Below, one piece after another: positions 9,676 through 62,727 of a stretch of 64,000 nt of DNA (the stretch's first letter is position 1; every line of letters starts with the position of its first letter). The translations under genes were made by a program, and so were the position numbers. The stretch covers positions 1 to 64,000 of the forward strand of contig WTXG01000079.1 in NCBI GenBank assembly GCA_022496185.1, written 5' to 3'. Below the pieces are notes generated by a model. The model was given only the letters and a program-made list of their open reading frames with translations, ran no database searches and was not told where the DNA came from. The stretch comes from Multifurca ochricompacta (taxonomy: Eukaryota; Basidiomycota; Agaricomycetes; Russulales; Russulaceae).

Positions 9676-10848
9676 CAGGTCAGCTGAAGAGATGCAGGCT
9701 GATGCTGCAAAGAACAAGAAGCTGACAGTCTTCAAGATGACACAGCTGCACAAAACACAAAAAGATGGAGGTGCACTGTCCATGTCTCACCATTGACTAT
9801 GCTTTGGTAGGTGTTGCCCACATTGTCAGAGTGATGACAATGATAGCAATGATGACAATGATGATGATGATGACAATTACAACCTGGAAGAAGACTCCAT
9901 TCTCCATTATGTTGTGAGCTGGGCTGAGACTGGCTCAACAGCACCACCGCCAACCTCTGTCACACCAACAAATTGACCAACCTCCTCCTCACCTCCACCC
10001 TCTTCAACCATCTCTACCTCAAGCCCTTTTCCCAAACAGTCTACCTCATCAACACAGCAGCTGAATACCCCAGTGCCAGGCTCATCATTGACTGGACAAA
10101 CTGCAACTTTGCTTTCAACCAAGGAACGTGGGGTCTATGTCAGTGTGGACAGGGTGGGCTTGGGCTTGCAAGTGCATCAGAGGAAGACAATTAAGAGGTC
10201 AATCAACACCTGGATGGAGGATGGATTCCCAAGGTGTGTCCACCCATGCATGTGCTCAACACTCCCGAACATGGGGTCTACGTCAGCATGGACAGGGTGG
10301 GCTTGGGCTTGCAAGTGCATTGGAGGAAGACGATTAAGAGGTCAATCAACACTTGGATGGAGGATGGATTCCTGAGGTGCATCCACCCATGCATGCACTT
10401 GACACTCCCGAACGTGGGGTCTACATCAGCATGGACAGGGTGGGCTTGGGCTTGCAAGTGCGTCGGAGGAAGACAATTAAGAGGTCAATCAACACCTGGA
10501 TGGAGGACAGATTCCCAAGGTGCATCCACCCATGCATGCACTTGACACTCCCAGTGCATGATAGACCATCGATACTCATAGATGTGCTGAGGGCTTTGCA
10601 ATGGACTGGGCTGCTATCAAGGTATGGGATTTGTGAAGCATAAATAAGCATGGGTGAGTAACAGGGCATGACTTGGCTTTGTGTGACTAATGCTTGCTTC
10701 AACCAGGACCACTGCACCAGGTCTCAAACCTGTTGCATCCTTCACATGGCATCACACGCCCATCACATCCATCAAATGGCACCCTACAGAGGATTCAATC
10801 CTTGCAACATCTGGAGCAGAAAGTCAAGTCAAGGTTTGGGTACACTAG
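9676..10848 (+). pseudogene. Captured RRB1/GRWD1-like WD40 gene fragments in hAT1
   Basis: Pieces match ribosome-assembly WD40 protein Rrb1/GRWD1 in the right order. They are QADAAKNKKLTVFKMTQLHK (about 9690), an acidic stretch then NLEEDSIL (about 9880), VVSWAETG (about 9915), EGFAMDW fused to IKVWDL (about 10590), and GLKPVASFTWHHTPITSIKW plus HPTEDSILATSGA (about 10710-10830), ending at TAG 10846-10848. The second and last pieces correspond to the GTQAE...LH and ASGADxQ segments of the family. A 143-bp tandem repeat interrupts the middle. Frames change and large parts are missing, so no functional protein is expected. It is a host gene copy carried by the hAT, not a resident gene. Confidence 0.72.
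10124..10552. repeat. Tandem repeat, 143-bp period, three units
   Basis: Recognisable by GGACAGGGTGGGCTTGGG at 10147, 10290 and 10433, an exact 143-bp spacing. Because 143 is not a multiple of three, each unit presents the same peptides in a different frame, so the expansion happened after any coding use. It lies inside the captured RRB1-like sequence in hAT1. I do not recognise the unit. Confidence 0.92.
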
Positions 10849-16364: not shown

Positions 16365-19300
16365 GGGGCTGTAGTGAACTTTTTCTGGGAAAGAGTGTAC
16401 TGGGGAATGAGCACAAGAAAACCCTCTATTTATCTGCCTCTGGGTGGCACTTATAGAAGTCTTTGATAAGGTCAGGCACAAAGATGTCCACAGCTGCTTC
16501 CCACGAGTTGTTGGAGTTGGGGAAGCCCTTCCATTTGATCAAATAATACAGTTTGTGCCCTCTTCCTTTCCACTTTGCGTCAACAATATGTTCCACCTCC
16601 CATTCCAGTTCTCCTTTGATCAATTCAGGGGGTGGTCTTGGGAAGTTCTGCCCATGTAGGGATGTTTCTTTGTACAGTATGAGAAGGTTGGCATGGAAAA
16701 CAGGGTGGATCTTCCATGCAGGTGGTAACATCAATTTGTACATAATGTCTGACAGCTTCTGTTCAATTGTAAAGGGGCTGTGGTGTCTAGGAGCAAGTTT
16801 TGCCATTGGGTGGGATGTGTGAATGTTATGTCCTTCCAACCAAACCTGATCCCTGACCTGGTAGGGCATAAACTTTGTGGGCTTCTTGGTCAGGGTCCTT
16901 TGCGCCTTCTGTAGATTCTTATTGGCTGATTGCCATATTCTTCCCATTGGCCAATATGCTGAGTCACAGATGGTACATTGGTGGGTTTGTCTGTCCAAGT
17001 GGTGTGGGGATTCCATCCCATAATAAGGGAGAATGGGGAGGTTTTCATCATCCCATTTGGCCAAGAGTTATGTGTGAACTCTGCCATTGCCAACCATTCA
17101 GCCCAGTCATCTTGTCACTTGTTGCACCAGAAACAAAGGTACTGTTCCAGCCACTGATTTGTTTGTTCTGATTGACCATCAGTTTGAGGGTGGTAGGCTG
17201 TTGAGATATTCTGTTGGATATCAAGCTGTTTACACAGCACCCTTGCAAACATGGAGGTAAATCATGGGTCTTGGTCAGAAATGATCTTCTGGGGAAGTCT
17301 GTAGTGTTGATAGACGTGGTTCAGGTAAAGTTTCACAACCCCATTGGCTGAGATTGTCTCATTACAAGGGATGAAGAGTGTGGCTTTAGAGCAATCATGG
17401 TCCATGATGGTAAGTATGGAGTCATAACCTTGTGAGTGTGGTAGTTTAATGATGAAATCCATTGAAATTGTCTGGAAAGGTGCCATAGCAGTGGGTACAA
17501 TCAGTGAGAGTGCTGGCAGTTTCAGGTGCATGTTTACTTTGTTTGCTTGACATTCTGTGCATCCTTTGACATATTCCTCTACATCCTTTTTCATATTTGG
17601 CCACCAGTAGTTGCGTTTAGTCAATGCATACATGTTCACGATACCAGGATGTCCTGCAGAGGGAAGATTGTGGTGAAAATGGATCACCCCCCTCTTAATG
17701 TTGTTACCACCAGTGACAACCAAACAATCGCCATCCTTCCACCAGAGGCCATTCATCATTTTCAGGTTATGAGGTTCCGCCCAGGACTTGCACAGTTCCT
17801 GATTCATATTCTGTGTCACCTGGGCCCATAAATCCATGTCATAAAGGCTAACAGCAGTGGTTTTTGCAAAAACATCTTCAGGGAGGACTACAATGTTCTC
17901 ATTGTCATCCTCTAACTCTAGCACTTCTCGTGCTACTCATTGGCTGATCTTGTGAGGTTCATGCCAATAGAGAAGATTGGAGTGGTTGGTGTAGATGATA
18001 GTCTGATGAGGGGATCCCACCAGGTAGGGCTGCCAGTGTCATAGGGCTTTCACAATAGCTAATAGTTCTCTATCCCAGATGTCATAATTTCTTTTGGCTG
18101 AAGAGAAGGTTTCAGAATAGAATGCAATGGGGTGCAGGATCTCTGTCACATCTTGTTGCAAAAGAACAGCTCTGTTGGCATACATGGAAGCATTGACTTT
18201 GAGCTCAAAAGGCTTCTCTAGATCAGGTTGAATAAGGATGGGTTCAGAACTTATGATGGTCTTTATCTGTTCAAATGCCTCTTGTTGGGGTATGCCCCAG
18301 TGCCATGGTACATCCTTCTTGAGGAGGTCATTAAGTGGTCTAGCAATAGCAGAGAATCCTTTTACAAAGTGTCAATAAAAATTACAAAAACCAATGAATG
18401 ATCTGACATCCTTGGTACACAAGGGAGTTGACCATTCCTGAATGCCTTGCACCTTTATGGGGTCCATTTGTACTTAACCACCTTCTAGGATGACACCTAA
18501 GTATTCAATGCTGGTCTGTTCAAAGGAACATTTTGCTGGTTTCAGGTAAAGGTTGTATTTTGTCAGAATGTCGAGTACTTTGTGAACCTGGGCTCAGTGG
18601 TGGTTGAGATTGTTTCCAGTGGCTACCAGGATGTTGTCCATGTATACAACTACTTCTTCTGTAAGGATGAGGTCGCAAAAGATGTGATTCATCATCAATT
18701 GAAAGGTTGCTGGCAAGTTCATTAAGCCAAAGAACATCACATTGGGTTCGAAAAGTCCTTGATTGGTTTTGAAGGCTGCTTTTGGTTGATCACCTTCTTG
18801 AATACAAATGTTGTTATATCCCCAGCAAATGTCCATCTTGGAGAACAATGCCTTGTCACACATTTTATTGATAATTTCAGATATCAAGGGAAGTGGGTAG
18901 TTGTTTTTCACCATCAGTTCATTAATCCATCTGTAGTCTTGCACCAGTCACAGTTTCCCATCTTTCTTTTTGATAAAGAAGAATGGCAAGGTGTAAGGGG
19001 AGTTCAATGGTTGTATATATCCCTTAGCCAAGTGCTCCTCTAGGAAAGTAGAGAGCACCTCTTTCTCAGGTTGGGACAGCAGATAGATTTTGCAATCGAC
19101 TGCTGGCAGGGCACCTGGGATGAAATCTATAGCATGGTCCCATGGTCGAGAAGGGGGGAAATGCTGCAACTCTTCTTCTGAGAAAACTTTACAATGTCAG
19201 TGGTATTCTGCTGGGACTATTTCCTCAAATGTCTTCTCTGGATTTTTCTGTGCTTCTGCCTGAGCCAGTTCTGAAGCCTTCATAACATAACAGTACACCT

Positions 19301-19396
19301 GATCAACAGGTTCTACATCACTCCAGGTGACAGCTGACCCCATAACAATGGCATGGGAAAGAGGGTGTCATGCAGTGTAATCGTATCCCAAGGATG

Positions 19397-19970
19397 TTGT
19401 TACAACTCACTGTCAACTGCCTGGACAGTGGGTTGTATGCGAGGGAAAGGGTTTGGAAGTGGGCAAAAGGATGAGAGCAAGGATGAAAGTGCAGAGAGAC
19501 AAAGTGAACAGCTCAAAGGCAAGGGGTGAGAAGCCTTCCACAAGGTGGGGCTAATCTCCTAGGTAGTCAGGGACCGGATCACAAGTGGACAGTCTGGAGC
19601 TGTCCATTCTATTCCCAAAGGGTTTATATATGTAATTACAACCAGGACTTTGGTCTGTGCACTACTTTAGGGGAGGTTAACTTTGCTTTAACTCCCCACT
19701 GATCCACCAATGAGAATAGCCCCACTTTTGGGCTTAGAAATCCGCAGTCCACAGTCCGCAGTTTGTGGACTGCTGTTTAGGCATTGTGGGCTTCTGTTAG
19801 TACTCTTCCCACAGGTCTCCAATTTGGCAGGAGTCCAGCCCTGGTCCAGACTGGCCCTTCTCTGGTCTTAATCTAGGGTTATCTTTGTCTCTGAGGGTTC
19901 TGCAAGGTCTCTGGGAGTGTCCAGAGATTTCCAGGGGGTCAGGAGGTCTCTAGGGTGTCAGTTCATGACA
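19397..19970 (-). mobile_element. Solo LTR, family B, in E1 pol
   Basis: 574 bp, TGTTACAACTCACTG to CAGTTCATGACA, with TSD GATGT (19392-19396, 19971-19975). Minus orientation relative to the copies at 4522 and 54648. It interrupts the protease-RT linker of E1 at LGYDY. Confidence 0.93.
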
Positions 19971-20409
19971 GATGTGATGAGGACTGGGTAATAATCTTTG
20001 TCCATTGTTGCTTCTGCCCAATTAATTTTTGGCTCAAATGCTGCCAACCAGGGGTATCCCAGGACCATGTCTTCATCTCCCAGATCCGTGATGAGGAAGC
20101 AAAGCTGTTTGGTCTGTTCTCCAACTTGTACTTCTAAATCACAACAATGTGTGATTTTCCCAGCTTTGTTTGCCATCCCATCTATATTCCAAATGTTCTT
20201 TTCCTGAGGAAGCAATTGTGTTCCTAGCCCCAGGGTTCTCTGAAGTCTTTGGCTGATAAAATTGTCTGTTGCTCCAGAGTCAATCAAAATGTCTCAATTG
20301 GCCATCTTCTGTTTGGTTTCAAAGTGTACTGGTATTTTTAGGGACTTGAAACAACTAGTATACACAGAAGTAACATGGAGTGCTCTTGCCCAGGCCAATG
20401 GGGTCAAGC

Positions 20410-21912
20410 CTAACAAAAATCCTTCTGGCCAAAGGCCTTCTCCACAAGTATGGAGTGCACCCCTTCATCCTCATTCATCATACTGTTCCAGAGTGCTTCA
20501 GCCTTCTGTTCCTTGGTCTTTGGGGTGGATACTGGATTCTCTTTGGAGACAGGTGGTAAGGCTGTGGATGGCATAGTAGAAGTGGTAGCCACCATTACTT
20601 CTGTGGTGCAGACCATTTTCTTGGGGCAGAATTGTGACATATGCCCCTGTGCCCAGCAGTGAAAACAATGCCCTTCCTTCAGGAGCATCTTCTTCTCATT
20701 GTCAGTGAGTGCTGTGTGGGCCTTAATTCAGTCTGTGGAGGTATCCATGGTGTTGGGATCTCGTGGCACTGTAGGTTTGACTCCAAATGCCACCTTCCAC
20801 TGTTCTCAGGTTTTACCCTTCTTGGTATCTATGCCAAAGCATGTCTGGAAATCCAGATAATCTTGCTGCTGTCTTCTGGCAGCATTTGTCCACTGGCCCC
20901 ATGACTCAGGATGATGGAATTGAATAATGTTTTTCACCAGGGGGTTGGGTAATCCCTGGGAGAAGAGGTCAAGCATGGCCTCTTCATTCACATTGTATCC
21001 CACTCGTTTGGCCAGATTGTGAAACTTGGCTACATATCCATCCAAGTCACCTCTCTCCATCTTCAATGTCTTTAATTCTCTGGCAGCCTTCTGTTTGGCC
21101 TGCCCATTGGTGAAGGCATCTTTAAATCTTTGTGCCACTATATCACACAGGTCTTCATCTGTGGTTCAAGTTCCAGCCATAATCTGGTCATTCAGCCATT
21201 TGATCTGCTCCATGGTCCAATCATCAACAGCATCCCCTCTAATTAGCAAAAGGAAAAGGTTGGTTTGTTGGAAGGGATTGACAATTTGTGGGATGTCATG
21301 ATTGAAATTTTTGAAGGTTTCAAACTCAAGCATGAACTTTTTGCTCTGAGAATGATCTCCTGTGAAGGTTGTTGGCAGGACTCCTGAAAGGTGTCCTGAT
21401 GGTGGGGGTAGGTTCAGCATAGGAGCAGGGGGGGCAGGGTCAGGTAGCTGTGCAGTGATGGTGGACATAGTCAGGTAAGCAATGGTCAGGGTGTCTGAGG
21501 TTTGTTGTGTGATCTGGGGAGATACCAAAGCAGGTTTTCTGAATGTGGTGATCTCTGGTGCAACTGTTGAAGCCATAAAACCAGTGGCTATGATCTGTGC
21601 ATCTTTGCTGTTTTCTTCAATATATTCTTCTGGTTCTGAATCTGTAATGATGGCTGGAGGATTCTCTCTCCAAGGCCCTAAGCCATATTCTGGTGGGGCA
21701 GGTCCTGTGGTGACCCAGGAACATTGGCTTTGAGAGTAATGGATACAGTACCAAGCCTGCTTCTGTTCATCATATTCAACTGGCTGGTACTGGTTGTCAT
21801 GATAGACATAGTATCCAAACTCAGTTTCAAAGTCTTTCCAGATGGCAGAGCCAAGGACTTGTTGAGAAAGATTATCCTCATCTTGGCAGTTGATGAGTTC
21901 TTCATTGTGCAA
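20410..21912 (-). pseudogene. Gypsy E1 gag
   Basis: A 501-codon frame from MHNEELINCQDEDNLSQQVL to QKDFC-TAG. It contains LGSAIWKDFETEFGYY near the N-terminus, a Pro-rich segment, and a Retrotrans_gag-type capsid region (SKKFMLEFETFKNFNHDIPQ, RGDAVDDWTMEQIKWLN, ARELKTLKMERGDLDGYVAK, LDLFSQGLPNPL). The nucleocapsid knuckle CFHCWAQGHMSQFC (CX2CX4HX4C) is at about 20670-20630. Internal stops are TGA (e.g. after MAGT at 21166). The final codons GAT TTT TGT TAG overlap the frameshift heptamer into pol. The ATG start lies 48 nt inside the LTR, just past the primer-binding complement. Confidence 0.87.
20416..20422 (-). promoter_or_regulatory. Putative -1 ribosomal frameshift site GGATTTT (gag-pol, E1)
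   Basis: In the gag frame the codons read AAG GAT TTT TGT TAG. Shifting -1 at GGATTTT gives GGA TTT TTG TTA GGC, open into the protease. The same heptamer and frame relation occur at 41903-41909 (E2) and 55704-55710 (F2). GGAUUUU is the established -1 slippery heptamer of red clover necrotic mosaic virus. Confidence 0.65.
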
Positions 21913-21947
21913 GGTCTGGCTTCAACTGGATGAAGCCACAGTGAGGG

Positions 21948-21958
21948 AGACTCAACTT
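21948..21958 (-). promoter_or_regulatory. Self-primer-binding site of E1
   Basis: On the minus strand AAGTTGAGTCT, 2 nt inside the 5' LTR. It is perfectly complementary to AGACTCAACTT at 22628-22618 (minus), which lies 35 nt downstream of the TATATAAGG box, i.e. at the expected mRNA 5' end. The usual TGG start of a tRNA primer site is absent. Confidence 0.7.
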
Positions 21959-21960
21959 AA

Positions 21961-22983
21961 TGTGATGCCTGGTGCAGGCATTCAACATGACGTGTGACAA
22001 AGTCATGTAGCATATGATAAGATTATGGGGGCCAGATAGGGGTACATGCATGTAAATAGGAAAAAGAATACAATGCTCTCTTGATTCGCTTTTTCAAGCC
22101 TTTTTTATACAATTTACACTACAGTTAATTTCAATACAAGTATGAGAGTTTTGTAAATAGGGGTTAAGTAAATGAGACATTTTATCTTGTGACTTTTTCA
22201 ATTTGTCGTGCTTGTATCAGTTAGATAAAATAATCAAAATAAAATAAATGTTAATCTTGTAACTGTAAACTTTTAACCATAGAGTCTGTAGAATCAAATG
22301 TGAGACGCAAACAAGATCGAAGTTCATTGCCCCTGAGGGGCACACCAAAAATTAATTGTTCTAGCCAAAGGCTAGAACTTTTGACAACTGTGGTGCGCTT
22401 TTGCGCTCCTCCAGGTCGTCAATGGATCGTAATCCATCAGCATAACTATGAAGTCTTGTGCACACTGTGTTACTAGTATGCAGAGTTGAGTGAGGAGTCA
22501 ATACTAAGGAGCTAATCCCTTAGTACTGGTGAGCAGACAAGTGCCAAAAGCACTGAGACAATTCAAGGATCGGGTCTTTAGAGATCACCCAGAAGGTAAT
22601 GCACCAAGTCAATTAAGAAGTTGAGTCTAAGGCATACAGGCTATCTAGGTGGGCCTTATATATGTAATAGAGGTTGGGGTCTGAATTGGAGCTAAGTACT
22701 TGGCATATCAACAAAGTTGTAATGTAACTAAAAGGGGGAATGGAGTGGAAGTGGGTCAGATGAGAATATACCTAGACATATTTGGTATAGTCGTGATTCT
22801 GGTGGGAAAATATGTAAGAGTCCTGATGTAAAGTACAAGTCATAGATAAGAAAGAAGCATGTCAAAGATAAGGAACAAATATGTACAATGGGGGCGCAAC
22901 TGCAGTCAACAAGCATCCAACACAGCCAAACAACAGGTCACATGGCAAAAGAGGAGAAAAGACGACATAGCAGGGTTTGTAAC
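21961..22983 (-). repeat. 5' LTR-F of E1, interrupted by solo LTR-G
   Basis: Plus-strand ends TGTGATGCCTGG and GGGTTTGTAACA. LTR-F bases are 21961-22014 and 22445-22983, about 590 bp without the insertion, matching the solo copy at 44283-44876. TATA motif (minus) at 22663-22655. The 3 kb-distant T2 remnant begins at 22984. Confidence 0.88.
22015..22439 (-). mobile_element. Solo LTR, family G (relative of copia-2 LTR)
   Basis: 425 bp, TGATAAGATTATGG to GTAATCCATCA, with TSD GCATA (22010-22014, 22440-22444). On the minus strand its first 130 bp align with the copia-2 LTR and keep the same hairpins: GCGCAAAAGCGC, TTCTAGCC/GGCTAGAA and GCCCCTCAGGGGC. The rest is diverged. Confidence 0.87.
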
Positions 22984-23874
22984 AAAGACACATACCATAA
23001 AGTTCTTCCTCCTCCATGCTTGACTGTCAGGGTGGTGGTTCTGTCAGAGAGTGGTTACCATGAAAATTGGACAGTGGATGACTGGAAAAGGATCTTGTGG
23101 TCAGGTGAGACTATAATGAACAGAATTGGTTCAGACAGAAGGAGCTATACTTGGAAAAATAAGGGAGAACCACCCTCTGACAGAACCACCACCATGACAG
23201 TCAAGCATGGAGGAGGAAGAACTTTATGGTATGTGTCTTGTATGGGGTGAAATGGACTAGGAATGCTTACAGGGGTTCAGGGGATCATGAATCCATGCCA
23301 GTACTGTGATATTTTGGATGGCGGAGTGGTAGAAAGGTCTGAAAAGTTGGAAATGGTGGAGGGTGAAAGCATGTTTCAGCAGGACAATGACCCAAAACAC
23401 AATTCCAAGAAGGCAAACCAGTGGTTTAAAGACAAGAATATTGAAGCCTGGTATGGACAGCCCAATCCCTTGAGATATTAGCCCCATTGGACACCTCTGG
23501 GTGGATCTGAAGAAGGTTCTTAACCAGTCAAGGGGGTACCTGAGTTGTGGGAGAGGGTGGTGGAGGAGTGGAATAAAAATGCACCAGAATGATGGTAAAA
23601 GGTTATAGAAAGGATGACTAAAAGGATTCAAGGAGTTAGCAAGGCAAAAAGGGGTTAAATAAAGTAGTAATTGGGCAGATAGTGGATTTAAAATGCAGGT
23701 CAAAAAACTGTCCTGATGATTGATTGATTTGATTTGATCTAAATTGCAAATGGTAGCCAGGAAGCAGGGCATTCAGACATACAGCCACACCATAACCAGA
23801 TTCCTAATTGCTGAGGTGCTATAGAGTGAATACTAGAAATGGTGCAAACATTGGGACAGTTTTTTGACCCACTG
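22984..23874 (+). mobile_element. Tc1-like T2, copy 2: right half of the element in gypsy L0
   Basis: Short left arm (22984-23050), loop, then the full right arm, ending GACCCACTG at 23874 with TA at 23875-23876. The right flank (ACTCCTGGCCAAATGGG) continues gypsy L0 exactly where 12767 stopped. Together with the left part of 12768-14819 it was therefore one T2 insertion, later split by gypsy E1. It carries the DDE remnant NWTVDDWKRILWSGET (about 23060) and QDNDPKHNSKKA (about 23390). Confidence 0.85.
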
Positions 23875-34989: not shown

Positions 34990-35129
34990 AGAACTCATCA
35001 TGTTTTATCACTTGTATCTAATTAATTGTGAACACATTTTTGATCTTATCACTTATGTTATCTATGTGTGATCACAATTATGTCAGACTGCTATCCTGGA
35101 ACATCTGTACCAGTATCTTTGTTTTAGAT

Positions 35130-35600
35130 AATAGAACTGATAAGATCAAAAATGTGTTCACAATTAATTATATACATCTAATAGAAGTGATAAGATCAAA
35201 AATGCGTTCATAATTAATTAGATACTTAGGACATAGATCTAAGTGATAAGATCAAAAATGCATTCACAATTAATTAGATACTTAGGATATACATCTTAGT
35301 GATAAGATCAAAAATGTGTTCATAATTAATTAGATACTTAGGATATATACATCTAAGATAATACAAGTGATAAGATCAAAACACATTCACAGTTAATTAG
35401 ATAATACAAGTGATAAAAAATGCGTTCACAATTAATTAGATACTTAGGATATACATCTGACTGATAAGATCAAAAATGTGTTCACAGTTAATTAGATAAT
35501 ATAAGTGATAAAAAACACATTCACAATTAATTGGATGCTTAGGATATACACCTAAGTGATAAGATCAAAAATGCATTCACAATTAATCAAGTGATAAAAT
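35130..35600. repeat. Irregular minisatellite, about 50-bp units
   Basis: Around ten imperfect copies of TGATAAGATCAAAAATGCGTTCACAATTAATTAGATA followed by variable ACTTAGGATATACATCTAAG. Unit starts are near 35138, 35188, 35244, 35300, 35368, 35411, 35462, 35506, 35558 and 35592, so spacing is 34-68 bp. The core AATTAATTGTGAACACATTTTTGATC also occurs once inverted at about 35018. Confidence 0.88.
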
Positions 35601-38162: not shown

Positions 38163-40362
38163 TGTTATGAACCCCACTACATTGTCTTTCTGTCTTTCTT
38201 TCTTTTTCTGCCATGTGACTCATTGTTTGGCCATGTCTGATTGTTGTTGACTTTGGTTGTGACTGCTGTTGTACTTGTTTGTTCCTTATCTATGACTCAA
38301 CTTCTTTGCTTATCTATGACTCATACTTTACATCAGGACTCTTATGTATTTTCCCACCAGAATTGCGACTATACTGAATACATCTTGGTATATTCTCATC
38401 TGACCCACTCTGGCCCTGTTTCCCCTTTTAGTTACATTACAATCTTGTTGATACATCAAGTATGATACTCCAATTTAGGCTCTGACTTCTGTTATGTACA
38501 GTGGGTCAAAAAACTGTCCCAATGTTTGCACCATTTCTAGTATTCACTCTATAGCACCTCAGCATTTAGGAATCTGGTTATGGTGTGGCTGTATGTCTGA
38601 AAGCCCTGCTTCCCAGCTACCATTCCCAATTTGGATCAAAGAGATTGGCCATGATATAAGCATTTTATGATCAAATCAAATCAATCAATCATCGGGACAG
38701 TTTTTTGACCCACATTTTAAATCCACTATCTGCCCAATTACTCCTTTTTTTCACCCCTTTTTGCCTTGGTAACTCCTTGAATCCTTTTAGTCATCCTTTC
38801 TATAACCTTTTGCCATCATTCTGGTGCATTTTTATTCCACTCCTCCACCACCCTCTCCCACAACTCAGGTATCCCCTTGACTGGTTAAGAACCTTCTTCA
38901 GATCCACCCAGAGGTGTCCAATGGGGCTAATATTTCAAGGGATTGGGCTATCCATACCAGGCTTCAATATTCCTGTCTTAAAACTGCTGGCTTGCCTTCT
39001 TGGAATTGTGTTTTGGGTCATTGTCCCACTGAAACATGCTTTCACCCTCCACCATTTCTTACTTTTCAAACCTTTCCACCACTCTGCCATCCAAAATATC
39101 ACAGTACTGGCATGGATTCATGATCCCATAAACCCCTGTAAGCATTCCTAGTCCATTCCACCCCATACAAGACCAATACCATAAGTTCTTCCTCCTCCAT
39201 GCTTGACTGTCAGGGTGGTGGTTCTGTCAGAGGGTGGTTCTCCCTTATTTTTCCCAAGTGTAGCTCCTTCTGTCTGAACCAATTCTGTTCATTATAGTCT
39301 CACCTGACCACAAGATCCTTTTCCAGTCATCCACTGTCCAATTTTCATGGTAACCACTCTCTGACAGAACCACCACCCTGACAGTCAAGCATGGAGGAGG
39401 AAGAACTTATGGTATTGGTCTTGTATGGGGTGGAATGGACTAGGAATGCTTACAGGGGTTTATGGGATCATGAATCCATGCCAGTACTGTGATATTTTGG
39501 ATGGCAGAGTGGTGGAAAGGTTTGAAAAGTAAGAAATGGTGGAGGGTGAAAGCATGTTTCAGTGGGACAATGACCCAAAACACAATTCCAAGAAGGCAAG
39601 CCAGCAGTTTTAAGACAGGAATATTGAAGCCTGGTATGGATAGCCCAATCCCTTGAAATATTAGCCCCATTGGACACCTCTGGGTGGATCTGAAGAAGGT
39701 TCTTAACCAGTCAAGGGGATACCTGAGTTGTGGGAGAGGGTGGTGGAGGAGTGGAATAAAAATGCACCAGAATGATGGCAAAAGGTTATAGAAAGGATGA
39801 CTAAAAGGATTCAAGGAGTTACCAAGGCAAAAAGGGGTGAAAAAAAGGAGTAATTGGGCAGATAGTGGATTTAAAATGTGGGTCAAAAAACTGTCCCGAT
39901 GATTGATTGATTTGATTTGATCATAAAATGCTTATATCATGGCCAATCTCTTTGATCCAAATTGGGAATGGTAGCTGGGAAGCAGGGCTTTCAGACATAC
40001 AGCCACACCATAACCAGATTCCTAAATGCTGAGGTGCTATAGAGTGAATACTAGAAATGGTGCAAACATTGGGACAGTTTTTTGACCCACTGTATATAAG
40101 GCCTGCCTAGATAGCCTGTATGCCTCAGACTCGACTTCTTAATCAACTTGGTGCATTACCTTCTGGGTGATCTCTAAGATCTGACCTCTGAATCATCTCA
40201 GTGCTTCTGGCACTTTTCCACTCACCAGTACTAAGGGATTAGCTCCTTGGTATTGACTCATCACTCAGCTCCGTGCACTAGTAACACAGTGTACAAAGAC
40301 TTCATAGTTCCACTACATGACTTTGTCACACATTGTGCTGAACACCCACACCAGGTGTTACA
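38163..40362 (+). repeat. 5' LTR-F of E2, interrupted by T2-3
   Basis: Starts TGTTATGAACCCC and ends CCAGGTGTTACA. LTR bases are 38163-38498 and 40095-40362. T2-3 sits inside the GTATATAAGGCC promoter motif. The mRNA-start sequence AGACTCGACTT is at 40127-40137. Confidence 0.88.
38499..40092. mobile_element. Tc1-like palindromic element T2, copy 3 (complete)
   Basis: 1594 bp between TA dinucleotides (38497-38498, 40093-40094). Two near-identical inverted arms of roughly 735 bp flank a loop of about 120 bp (about 39238-39358) that holds the NWTVDDWKRILWSGE codons. Each arm ends in a roughly 215-bp cap bounded by the terminal repeat and an inverted internal copy of it (GGGACAGTTTTTTGACCC at about 38693 and 39881). 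The arms carry degraded transposase C-terminal sequence read towards the outside. Confidence 0.92.
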
Positions 40363-40364
40363 TT

Positions 40365-40375
40365 AAGTCAAGTCT
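40365..40375 (+). promoter_or_regulatory. Self-primer-binding site of E2
   Basis: AAGTCAAGTCT, 2 nt after the LTR end (40362), complementary to AGACTCGACTT at 40127-40137 except for one C/T difference at a CpG. That 11-mer begins 34 nt after the TATATAAGG start. Confidence 0.68.
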
Positions 40376-57221: not shown

Positions 57222-57232
57222 AGACTCAACTT
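57222..57232 (-). promoter_or_regulatory. Self-primer-binding site of F2
   Basis: Minus-strand AAGTTGAGTCT, 2 nt from the LTR end (57235), exact complement of AGACTCAACTT at 57444-57434 (minus), which is 34 nt downstream of the TATATAAG box at 57478. Confidence 0.7.
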
Positions 57233-57547
57233 GATGTTACATCTGGTGTGGGACATTTCACATGACTTGTGCAACAGTGTTCATTCAGGAGTTTCAGATA
57301 GGAAGCCAATTGGACTTCCTGGAGTTTTACAGTTCCCTGAGACAATGTTAAGTGGAGAAGTACCAAAAGCACTGAGACAACTGAGTTGAGGTTCACAGGG
57401 ACTGTCCAGAAGACAAGCACCAATGTATTCAATAAGTTGAGTCTGAAGTCTACAGCATAGATACAACAGACTTATATATGTAAGGAAGGGTGATTATCTA
57501 AGGCATTACCTTGGAGAAGAGTGGGGCCTGAATATCCAGAAGCAGAG

Positions 57548-57924
57548 TGATGGATTGCAATCCATTGACGAGCAGGAGGAGCGCAAAAGCGCACCACACT
57601 CGTCTATGATTCTAGCTTCGGGCTAGAATGACTAATTTTTGGAGCGCCCCTCAGGGGCGATGAACTTCTTATTCATCCTGTTGAAATAAATCTTTCATAT
57701 GATTTTACAGACTATGGCCTCTTGTCTTGATTATTCTATGTTGCTGATTCAAGCACGACCAAAACTTAGCCCCTGTATTACAAAGATCTTGTGTTCATAT
57801 TGAAATAAGCTGTAGTGTAAAATGTATAATAAAGCTCGAAAATCAAGCAAGAAATAAGTAACGAATAAAAATTGTTTTCTTCGTGCGCATCTACAAAGCC
57901 TATCTCATGCTCATAACTATACCA
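57548..57924 (+). repeat. Copia-2 5' LTR
   Basis: TGATGGATTGCAATCC to ACTATACCA. The first 130 bp contain a series of perfect short palindromes: GGATTGCAATCC, GCGCAAAAGCGC, ATTCTAGC-TTCGG-GCTAGAAT, GCGCCCCTCAGGGGCG. The rest is AT-rich. Confidence 0.95.
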
Positions 57925-57936
57925 GGTTATGGGCCC
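57925..57936 (+). promoter_or_regulatory. Copia-2 primer-binding site (half-tRNA iMet)
   Basis: GGTTATGGGCCC immediately after the LTR, same as copia-1, complementary to the anticodon arm of initiator Met-tRNA. Confidence 0.78.
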
Positions 57937-57994
57937 TGCTGCTGCTAAATAAACTCGAAACCTACTTGCGTCATTTGCACTACATTCTTTCATT

Positions 57995-60900
57995 ATGACT
58001 GATGATCTTAAACTCAATGTTATCAAGTTAGCAGCAGATGGATCCAACTGGATCACGTACCGAGATCGCATGAAGTGGATCATGGATATGAGGGGCTTAT
58101 CAGAACTCCTCATGAACGACACTGTCACACAAAAATACATTGATGCCAGAACAGTAGGAGGGATAACTCCTGCACAACGATGGACAGCGGATGGAGCTAT
58201 AGTGAAACAGCTCATTGCCGCGTCCATACCCGATACAGTCTTTAATCGAATTAAGACTGCGACGCATGCGAAGGCAGTATGGGACATCTTGACAACTCTT
58301 TTTGAGGGACGATCGAGTAGTTTGATGGTGGATCTTGGAAGGAAGTTCCAAAACATGAAATGTGGTGAAGACGACAATGTACGTGCTCACCTTGATAGGC
58401 TGGATGAGATGCGAGAGAAGCTCGCATCTATCGGCAGAGTTGTTGACGACCTCGAGTATGTCGCCATCATCTCAGGTTCATTACCACCATCCTACGATGG
58501 TCCCGTCGAATCTCTTATGACATCATATGATGCCAGTAATCAAGTTGTGACCCCTGTCGCTATAAAGCGAGTTGCCATCAATGTATATGAATGTCGACTC
58601 CTCCGAAAAGCGCCTCAGGATGAGGCATTTGTAGCAAGTACCCAGCAGAAGAAGAAAAAGCGCGACATCGAGTGTTTCAATTGCCACAAGAAGGGGCATA
58701 TCAAAGCGGACTGTTGGGCAAAGGGAGGAGGAAAAGAAGGCCAAGGGCCAAAGAGAACCAAGAGCGACAAAGACAATGTTGCTGTTGCAGCAGAAAAGAC
58801 GGACAAGTCCACAGATATTGAGTCTTGGGTCATCGAAGTTACAAGTTATCAAGAGCAAGAGCCAAGTACTTCGTCAGTAGAAGAGACGGCAAGCGCAGCA
58901 AACGCATGTGAAGCCGAGCTTTACGATTCTGGTGCCTCACGGCACATATCCCCTTTTCGTCACCGATTTCTCTCCTATCAGTCTATTCCCCCTCAACCTA
59001 TTAGTGCCGCCGACAAACGCCTGTTCTATGCAATTGGCACTGGTGACCTTCAAATTGAAGTGCCCAATGGCGTATCGACCACTCCGATAATCTTGCGAGA
59101 TATACTGCACGCGCCTGACATTCCACTCACTGTTGTATCAATAGGGCGCATTGCAGGTGCAGGTTATGCCGTATCTTTCGAAGGCAATTATTGCAAGATC
59201 AAAAATCAAACAGGACACCAGATAGGCAGTATAGCGGCAAATTCAAATGGATTATACAAAGTCGAGCACGCAGATCAGGTAGCAATAGCGATAACGGAAG
59301 AAGTTGATCTTCCCACGCTCCATAAACGACTTGGCCACATCTCTGTCGACGCCATTCGTACGTTGATTCGCAGTCATGCAGTCACCGGACTGCGTTTAAT
59401 AGACGACCATTCACCATTCTTTTGCGAATCGTGCGAATATGCCAAGTTAACGCGCAAGACAATCAAAAAGGAGCGTACAGCGCCGCCTGCAAAAGCTTTC
59501 GGAGAAGAAATCCACACTGATTTATGGGGACCGTCCCCAACTTCTACTATTGGAGGACGAAAATACTATGTGACATTCACTGACGATTATTCGAGATTTA
59601 CAAAGATAGAGCTCTTGAGAAGTAAAGACGAGGCACTAAAAGCTTACAAGAGCTTTGCAGCTTGGGCCTTAACACAGCACGGTGTTCGCATTCGACGATT
59701 GCGATCAGACCGTGGAGGTGAATTCACAAGTAATGAATTCACGAAATTTTTGCAAGAACAAGGTACCGAGCGACGTCTTACGACTCACGATACTCCACAA
59801 CATAATGGCGTGGCGGAATCATTGAACCGCCGTCTTTTAGAGCGTGTGCGCGCCATCCTTCACCACGCGCAACTGCCCAAAAACTTATGGGGGGAGGCTA
59901 TTCATTTCGCTGTATGGTTAAAGAACCGTACTTCTACAAAAGCGCTCGGTAATGTAACACCTTTCGAGCGTCTTTACCGAGAAAAACCTAACCTGGAGAG
60001 AGTACCTGAGTGGGGACAGCACATCTGGGTTCACAATCACACAGGCTCAAAACTGGATGCGCGAGGCCTAGAAGCACGATGGGTAGGTTACGATCAAGAC
60101 AGTACACACGCTTCCCGCGTGTATTGGACAGAGAAACGAACTGTTTCTGTAGAACGAAACTTCAAGTTCGTGCCTCCAACTGTCTCTCTTTATTCACCAC
60201 CTCCCAGTTATGCCACTGCGACTTCGCAACCTCAAGTTGCAACACAAGTTCCACCAGCCGCCACTCTCCCAACGCCTCCCGTTTCAACCGTCCAACCAAC
60301 AATTTCCGCACCGCAAACGCCATCAGTTGCGACGCAATCATCAATTGTAACGCCTCAGACACCACTATCTACAGTCAGCGCGCCGATATTACCGCCCGTC
60401 GCTACTGATAGCGGCGAAGAAGAAATGGAAGATGAAGAAGTCGAAGAAGAACTTACCGAGCCAGTTGCGTCAACCTCAAAAGGAAAGGTAGAGCAACTAT
60501 GCAACCACCAGCCGCGCCAAAGAAAAGATTCGAATTCGCTCAATCAATGCGAAAATCAGAACGCATTGCAAGACTTTTAGAGAGGCGCAAAAGCGAAGGC
60601 TCGAACAGCCAACCATCTCGCAAGAGCACTCCCACATCTTCGACAATATCTTCCAGGCTTAAATATCACCATCCAGATACACAAGAAGGCAGTTCGGCAT
60701 CTATTGCTGATTTAGATATAGATTACGCGTACCACACCGAATACGACGACGTCATCGCGGCAGCAATTCAAGACGCCGAAGGCGATCCGAGAACGTTAGC
60801 CGAAGCACAAACGCGCGCGGACTGGCCCCTTTGGAAAGAGGCCATGGACCGCGAAATCAAAACATTGGAAAAAGCTGGAACGTGGATCACAGTGTCACGT

Positions 60901-62429
60901 CCTCAAAATAAGAATATTGTAGGTTCAAAATGGGTTTTTCGTATCAAACGAAAAGCGGACGGTACGATAGACAAGTACAAGGCAAGACTTGTCGCACGAG
61001 GCTTCACTCAAGTTTATGGTGTCAATTATTTTGACACTTTCTCTCCTGTTGCTAAACTCAGCAGTTTTCACACCATCCTGGCTCTGGCAGCGCGATTCGA
61101 TTGGGATATCGAATCTTTGATTTTAATGGTGCTTATCTAAATGGAGAACTAGATAACGATGAAGAAATTTATATGCAAGCGCCGCCTGCATATGAAAACA
61201 AAAATGGTAACACAGTTATGTGACTATGCAAGTCGCTTTATGGATTAAAACAAGCTGGAAGAAAATGGTACGACACACTCTCGTGTGCCTTAGCTGACCT
61301 GGGTTTCTGCGTAAGCTACGCAGATCCAGGAGTTTTTTATATTCGCATGGAAGGGCATTTATTAGTCCTTGCCATTCACGTCGATGACTGTGCCTTTACG
61401 GGCAGTTCGAGCAAACTGATCGCGCAATATAAAGTGAAACTTAACGACCGATATTCTATCACTGATCTAGGACCAATTCATTGGCTCCTAGGTATCAAAA
61501 TCACGCGTGATAGATCAGCACGAACAATTTCACTATCGCAAACGTCATATATTACTTCAATTCTTGCGCGATTCAGATTTAGCGACGTGAAACCCAACAA
61601 CACTTCCATGGCACCCGGAGTTGAGTATTCTAAAAAAGATTCACCGCAAAACCCAGCCGACGCCGCCGAAATGATGAAAATTCCTTATCACGAAGCAATA
61701 GGGAGTTTGATGTATGCGTCAGTTGGTACCCGACCAGACATCGCATTCGCCGTTTCGACTCTGTCGCGCTTCCTCGAAAATCCAGGCCGATTACACTGGG
61801 AAGCCGTTAAACGGATCTTCCGGTATCTTTCCGGCACTAGGAATATCGAGCTGACTTACGGCGGTGAACATCATGATCTCATAGGGTACACAGACGCAGA
61901 TGGAGCCAGTCAAGAGCATAGGCATGCCATCTCTGGCTACATTTTTCTGATCGACGGTGGAGCTGTATCCTGGAGTTTGAGAAAACAAGAACTCGTAACT
62001 CTTTCCACTGCGGAATCGGAATATGTTGCCACGACGCACGCGGCAAAAGAAGCAATATGGCTTCGCAAGCTCATAAATGAGCTTTTCCCATCTTTTATCG
62101 CATCCACCCCGCTCTATTGCGACAATCAGGCTGCGATAAAACTGGCCATCGAGGATAATTACCATGCACGAACAAAACATATCGATATAAGATATCACTT
62201 CATTCGCGATGTGATATCTAATGGCACGCTCAAACTTATCTACTGTCCTACTGACCAGATGACAGCAGATATCTTAACCAAAGCCCTTCCAAAATGGAAG
62301 GTGGATTATCACAACTCCTCCCTAGGCTTGCGTCGTGCTTGTGGGGGGAGTGATGGATTGCAATCCATTGACGAGCAGGAGGAGCGCGAAAGCGCACCAC
62401 ACTCGTCTATGATTCTAGCTTCGGGCTAG
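57995..62429 (+). pseudogene. Copia-2 gag-pol polyprotein, two frameshifts and one stop
   Basis: The first 861 codons are open. Gag: MTDDLKLNVIKLAADGSNWI, then knuckle CFNCHKKGHIKADC (about 58675). Protease LYDSGASRHISP (58918); pre-integrase LHKRLGHISVDAIRTL...CESCEYAK; integrase DLWGPSPTS, SDRGGEFTS and TPQHNGVAESLNRRLLE (59790). A one-base shift lies near 60490-60500, after which RT reads WPLWKEAMDREIKTLEKAGT and SKWVFRIKRKADGTIDKYKA. A one-base deletion lies near 61110 (SLILM for SFDFNGAYLNG) and a TGA at 61222 (VM-stop-LCKSLYGLKQAG). RT active site is IHVDDCAFTG (HVDD). RNase H: GYTDADGA, LVTLSTAESEYVA, YCDNQAAIKLAIEDNYHART and TADILTKALPKW. The frame runs about 79 nt into the 3' LTR and stops at 62427-62429. 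Confidence 0.92.
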
Positions 62430-62727
62430 AATGACTAATTTTTGGAGCGCCCCTCAGGGGCGATGAACTTCTTATTCATCCTGTTGAAATAAATCTTTCA
62501 TATGATTTTACAGACTATGGCCTCTTGTCTTGATTATTCTATGTTGCTGATTCAAGCACGACCAAAACTTAGCCCCTGTATTACAAAGATCTTGTGTTCA
62601 TATTGAAATAAGCTGTAGTGTAAAATGTATAATAAAGCTCGAAAATCAAGCAAGAAATAAGTAACGAATAAAAATTGTTTTCTTTGCGCGCATCTACAAA
62701 GCCTATCTCACGCTCATAACTATACCA
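62351..62727 (+). repeat. Copia-2 3' LTR
   Basis: 377 bp; differs from the 5' LTR at GCGCGAAAGCGC (G for A), CTTTGCGCGC (two changes) and CTCACGCTC (C for T). Confidence 0.95.

Follow-up and report, generated by a model that had tools for sequence, protein, structure and literature searches.

Three LTR retrotransposons, E1, E2 and F2, in the analysed window (64,000 nt of Multifurca ochricompacta contig WTXG01000079.1) carry an 11-nt word at the presumed start of their RNA and a complement of it just beyond the 5' LTR, and are very probably decayed Ty3/gypsy elements of the chromovirus type that would use their own RNA as the primer for reverse transcription. The original prediction had proposed such self-priming, and the comparative evidence supports it as the probable mode, since three deeply diverged lineages within a single genome spell the primer differently and share both the layout and a covarying second duplex.

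Layout and coding remains of E1, E2 and F2

The coordinates first given for the 11-mer pairs held in all three elements (Table 1), as did the single CpG-type change reported for E2, where one mismatch was found between the two words. The elements follow a common plan of a TATA box (TATATAAG), an 11-nt word 34 nt further on and a complement 2 nt past the LTR-terminal CA. The distance from the TATA box had been put at 35 nt in E1 and 34 nt in F2; that distance was borne out, with the correction that it is 34 nt from first T to first base of the word in all three. The site of pairing had been placed 2 nt inside the 5' LTR, which was wrong, as the putative primer binding site (PBS) lies outside that LTR and starts 2 nt past its 3' end (...CA followed by TT or TC). 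The LTR end was fixed on leader L143, in which an F-type LTR is joined to unrelated DNA and the PBS is absent.

Word and PBS were 212 nt apart in F2, 229-240 nt apart in 58 relatives and 670 nt apart in E1, the latter because a solo LTR of another family is nested in the E1 LTR; the family spacing would be expected without the insert. This solo LTR is flanked by a 5-bp duplication (TATGC) and its outer part shared 84% identity over 120 nt with the LTR of a copia element at 57548. The two LTRs of E1 (22984 and 15142) were 99.4% identical over 324 comparable nt with one mismatch and one gap, while the rest of the 3' LTR could not be located in the window. E1 is therefore probably fairly young, and it may have inserted with the CA/TG pair already in place.

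The coding remains of E1 lie in broken frames, and its gag, for which an own Pfam match was absent, was known by similarity to the gag of F2 (64.7% over 187 aa). Reverse transcriptase (RT) and RNase H were located ahead of an H2C2 integrase in E1, class 3, young class 1 and class 2a elements (the classes are described below), class 2b being covered by the RT scan only. A chromodomain followed the integrase in E1 (Chromo, 46 bits) and class 2a (32.4 bits), and none was recognised by eye in class 2b or class 3 in the open frames of stretches that possibly miss its place. A search of 5.8 billion proteins scored no gag homologues. An integrase search returned 242 relatives with uninformative names and no clade name among the 120 listed, and the matches of a PDB sequence search were Ty3 Gag-Pol and foamy-virus-type integrases.

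Table 1. Features of E1, E2 and F2, associated elements of the window and class 2 leaders with a repeated start word
Feature	Position	Strand	Basis or remark
E1 5' LTR (TGTTAC...CA), solo LTR inside	21961..22984	-	start: 3' LTR repeat and TGTTAC; end: CA before PBS
E1 TATA box TATATAAGG	22654..22662	-	first T (22662) 34 nt ahead of 22628
E1 self-primer word AGACTCAACTT, presumed first 11 nt of RNA	22618..22628	-	
E1 candidate second-duplex R arm CTTGGTGC	22601..22608	-	sequence; covariation in relatives
E1 candidate second-duplex U5 arm GCACCAGG	21968..21975	-	sequence; covariation in relatives
E1 putative PBS AAGTTGAGTCT	21948..21958	-	2 nt past LTR end
Solo LTR of other family nested in E1 LTR, 425 bp, TG..CA	22015..22439	-	flanking duplications 22010-22014, 22440-22444
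E1 coding remains, broken frames: gag, RT, RNase H, integrase zinc domain, SH3_Tf2-1, chromodomain	16426..21921	-	
E2 TATA box	40093..40101	+	first T (40093) 34 nt ahead of 40127
E2 self-primer word AGACTCGACTT, founder spelling	40127..40137	+	
E2 putative PBS AAGTCAAGTCT	40365..40375	+	one CpG-type mismatch
F2 TATA box	57471..57478	-	first T (57478) 34 nt ahead of 57444
F2 self-primer word AGACTCAACTT	57434..57444	-	
F2 putative PBS AAGTTGAGTCT	57222..57232	-	
Copia element, LTRs about 377 bp, TG..CA	57548-62727		5-bp duplication CAGAG
Two-copy leaders, class 2b	L137-L139, L150, L151, L153-L155, L157-L159		
Two-copy leaders, 13 of class 2a	from L009-L038 with L129-L136 and L162-L167		

Other repeats were seen in the window. 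The copia element has apparently inserted into the LTR of F2. Related inverted-repeat DNA (95.5% identical over 400 nt) abuts TATATA in the E1 3' LTR (14820) and the E2 5' LTR (40093), which suggests a mobile element that targets TA, and at positions 10124-10552 a 143-nt unit occurs three times in tandem, the copies being 89-90% identical to the first.

Genome-wide occurrence and conservation in the E/F family

The 11-mer pairs are not due to chance. In the 53.8 Mb genome AGACTCGACTT occurred at 2459 exact places and its reversed word at 10, while the corresponding counts for AGACTCAACTT were 634 and 19. The founder spelling is AGACTCGACTT, and AGACTCAACTT, the form in the original prediction, is its CpG-changed form. 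Among 100 listed of the 2459 AGACTCGACTT places, 26 convergent pairs were 232-239 nt apart and one was at 1343 nt, and pairs in the opposite order within 1500 nt numbered three at scattered distances. When the window was scanned blindly for a TATA box with exact 10-mer pairs 150-320 nt apart, F2 and one unrelated inverted repeat emerged, compared to a mean of 0.2 and a maximum of 2 in 30 first-order random sequences; the scan is weak alone because E1 (670 nt) and E2 (mismatch) were outside its reach. The unrelated repeat is a perfect one of 25 nt at 35053-35322 with starts 269 nt apart, and perhaps represents the ends of a small DNA transposon.

The word pair was kept in 58 of 59 E/F family (class 1) leaders picked by homology, including 24 of the 25 picked by gag protein similarity alone and all 34 picked by leader DNA similarity, for which the queries contained the words. 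The sole miss was L127, where the leader is absent, and a 38-nt piece (L123) was dropped. Of 1422 gag candidates 150 were scored, and among these were 20 sampled copies of a subfamily with mostly open gag frames, all of which read AGACTCGACTT/AAGTCGAGTCT with 11 of 11 bases paired.

The original prediction had proposed covariation of the two 11-mers among family members as a test, and this failed inside the E/F family. Both words were invariant in the 20 younger rows, and the 38 older rows varied at the CpG only (17 unchanged, thirteen changed on both sides and eight on one side), the change being compatible with pairing in eight of the thirteen rows changed on both sides and incompatible in five. 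These changes look like independent decay after insertion, and covariation beyond CpG decay was absent.

Three classes with different words and the same layout

A survey of 93 leaders comprised 61 of the E/F type (E1, E2 and F2 included), thirteen each of classes 2a and 2b and six of class 3. The 30 strongest gag matches split into two related clusters, here class 2, whose gag was about 22% identical to that of F2 over the matching part, and RT identity was 46-57% between lineages and 74% between classes 2a and 2b. Class 2 carried ATCTTGTCCT 34-35 nt after the TATA box and AGGACAAGAT 2 nt past the LTR end, and a third lineage (class 3) carried AAGTCTGTTCT and AGAACAGACTT in the same layout. 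The class 2 words were found through 9-mer pairs shared among cluster members, a procedure that also turned up other pairs, of which only ATCTTGTCCT/AGGACAAGAT matched both the TATA distance and the position of the LTR border. Thirteen of fifteen class 2a stretches were used (L165 and L168 are other DNA), thirteen of seventeen from class 2b (L149 is cut off, L152, L156 and L161 are other DNA; the contig-end stretches L029 and L031 were left out) and six of eight from class 3 (the primer of L141 lies outside the stretch and L143 is a class 1 LTR).

A perfect pair was present in 47 of 61 E/F leaders, in every class 2a and 2b leader (13/13 each) and in five of six class 3 leaders. Ninety of the 93 leaders showed the TATA pattern, in each case 34-36 nt ahead of the word's first base; of the other three, two start too late and L148 carries TATTTAG in its place. 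ACATT or ACATC directly preceded the PBS in all 93. When the three classes were aligned on the border, eight of ten pair positions differed and all still paired, while words mixed across classes gave three to six matches only. This exchange of words between classes, as read from the sequences, is the covariation that matters, in three cases only.

Second duplex and RNA folding

Next to the primer and PBS a second duplex may form between an R stretch that follows the primer by a few nt and a stretch of U5 immediately ahead of the LTR end. Among the 37 scored Y and F rows of class 1, the final base of GGTGN and its partner were T-A in 15, C-G in 14, T-G in four and C-A in four, so that 33 of 37 paired, a level reached by 0.06% of shuffles with kinship uncorrected. 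Three class 1 rows missed by the scoring pattern were read as two pairing and one not, and the E subtype, which lay outside the scored test, had C-G in 12 rows and C facing A in six (6 of 18 without the C-G pair). The U5 change in the class 1 duplex is itself of the CpG type, and a CpG inside the duplex gave no signal, as three of six rows changed on both sides were compatible. Between classes 2a (GGTGC:GCACC) and 2b (GGTGA:TCACC) a C-G pair is exchanged for A-U, and the class 3 alleles GGTC:GACC, GGTA:TACC, GGTG:CACC and GGTT:GACC all pair, one of them through U-G. The energy of this duplex was at best 1.5 sd better than in shuffles (1E, -24.1 vs -19.2, sd 3.2), and class 2a showed no improvement over them. 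A second duplex of the pretzel type (U5 with R) is thus supported in each class by covariation only.

For a third pretzel duplex, between post-PBS sequence and the LTR, the energies were not clearly better than those of shuffles and were worse in classes 2 and 3. Folding of the leader, which the original prediction had also proposed, was uninformative. The probability of primer:PBS pairing was approximately 0.85 or more in 19 of 20 sampled leaders and 0.40 in one, and it was about equally high with the interior shuffled; RNA folding therefore adds nothing. The primer:PBS duplex ended against a mismatch in 93 of 93 leaders, where the base after the primer was C facing T or A facing C. In class 3 (L142, L145, L147 and L148) an R-U5 hairpin formed by CTTCCTAAG..CTTAGGAAG and variants appears, by eye, to covary.

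Repeated start word in class 2

The presumed RNA start word from +1 to +23, primer included, was present twice in the 5' LTR of 24 of 26 class 2 leaders at a distance of 58-99 nt. The left boundary of the second copy fell exactly at +1 in 24 of 24 two-copy leaders, with 22 second copies matching 23 of 23 bases, one matching 22 of 23 and one carrying an indel. Genome-wide, the class 2b LTR forms comprised 208 exact two-copy starts and seven exact single ones, and two of the seven single-form places were 7380 nt apart on one contig, as the two LTRs of one element would be. The single form was without the R arm of the second duplex (2/2 seen) and may therefore be rare.

An unlikely account is that the second copy comes from the 5' end of the element's RNA and serves first-strand transfer, single-copy LTRs arising from RNA that was spliced or jumped. 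The second copy may then be a spare landing site for first-strand transfer, or it may be the end of a leader intron (CAG/GTGAGT ... CAG/) that is restored by transfer after splicing. A leader intron was rejected as the main reading of class 2, since the splice-like GGTGAG is the R arm of the second duplex (it faces CTTCACC), whose conservation is therefore explained without splicing. A search of the open-licence literature returned no paper on leader splicing.

Proposed mechanism and alternative explanations

By analogy with Tf1, transcription would start at the A 34 nt after the TATA box, and the first 11 nt of the RNA would fold onto the site 2 nt past the 5' LTR beside the second R:U5 duplex. 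The element's RNase H would cleave after nt 11, a primer end that the mismatch closing the duplex in all leaders would fix, and the freed 11-mer would prime minus-strand synthesis. Because priming would begin 2 nt beyond the CA, integrase would trim those 2 nt from beyond the terminal CA as in retroviruses. A 2-nt gap to the CA fits retroviral 3' trimming.

Most LTR elements are usually primed by a tRNA, and a tRNA or cut tRNA fragment could act through the PBS here, with the match to the LTR start incidental. For some copia lineages, PMC6317226 reports priming by half-tRNAs. The absence of a TGG-type tRNA site noted in the original prediction was confirmed, however, as the PBS words open with AAGT, AGGA or AGAA and none with TGG, and each of the three words matches the LTR start of its own class only, which, as judged from the elements' own sequences, makes this explanation very unlikely and narrowly the least probable of the three. 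The copia element, which is an LTR retrotransposon as are E1, E2 and F2, differs from them in that a self-complement was not found; its LTR held no complement of at least 7 nt to sequence that begins 0-3 nt past the LTR. Its post-LTR sequence GGTTATGGGCCCTGC resembles the complement of an initiator-tRNA anticodon arm and may be a half-tRNA primer site. The initiator-tRNA anticodon-arm pattern had 0 matches in the genome.

The paired words might instead be a promoter or regulatory element kept at both leader ends by common descent with no role in priming, as the words within each class are shared by descent and the E/F family is without covariation beyond CpG decay. The copies are, however, inverted, with their ends at the presumed RNA start and the LTR end +2, and in other lineages they are replaced in concert beside a neighbouring duplex that covaries, so this explanation appears highly improbable. 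It is also very unlikely, if slightly less so, that transcription begins upstream and that the word, instead of pairing with the PBS, folds into a local hairpin. Arms of this kind were read by eye in class 2 (CCCC..GGGG) and class 3 (ACAGAC..GTCTGT), and because these inverted arms span the presumed start, an RNA start further upstream is conceivable in both classes. Such arms were not noticed in class 1 on reading the sequences, and against the hairpin, complementarity to the PBS in classes 1 and 2 ends at the A that lies 34-35 nt past the TATA box, the same A at which the second word copy of class 2 exactly begins in every two-copy leader. Self-priming is the reading preferred here, and under it a change in the primer word would be tolerated provided that its partner changes with it. 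The three spellings and the covarying second duplex make the rule general and testable, and the layout (TATA, 34 nt, A, 10-11 nt, LTR end CA+2) predicts RNA starts and PBSs where these are annotated as absent.

Comparison with known self-priming elements

In Tf1 the first 11 RNA bases pair with the PBS and cleavage by RNase H falls between bases 11 and 12, as described in PMC7175516. Self-priming is described as the common feature of the Tf1/sushi group, and PMC10085805 describes two side duplexes in Tf1 relatives; in the portions of the literature consulted, self-priming is demonstrated for Tf1 and elsewhere proposed or predicted from sequence. The present elements resemble the Tf1/sushi chromoviruses Tf1/Tf2 of Schizosaccharomyces pombe, Tj1, Tosmo and Tcry in a presumed 11-nt RNA start that is complementary to sequence just past the 5' LTR, an LTR ending in CA, a chromodomain and an extra duplex beside primer:PBS (PMC7175516, PMC4600332 and PMC10085805). 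The likeness is one of layout, priming here being read from sequence. Unlike in Tf1/sushi elements, the third duplex was not found here and the class 2 start word occurs twice in the 5' LTR.

Possibly novel priming mechanisms were proposed for Tcn2-5 (PMC7175516), and PMC2864245 reports neither PBS type in a lycophyte Tcn1 element. By description, the present elements are also like Tcn1 of the basidiomycete Cryptococcus neoformans and moss elements of the Tcn1 clade, for which self-priming was proposed or predicted (PMC7175516 and PMC6317226). The priming suggested here would thus be of a kind already known, the Tf1/sushi-type self-priming earlier proposed for Tcn1, and the comparative support for it in these elements is clear.
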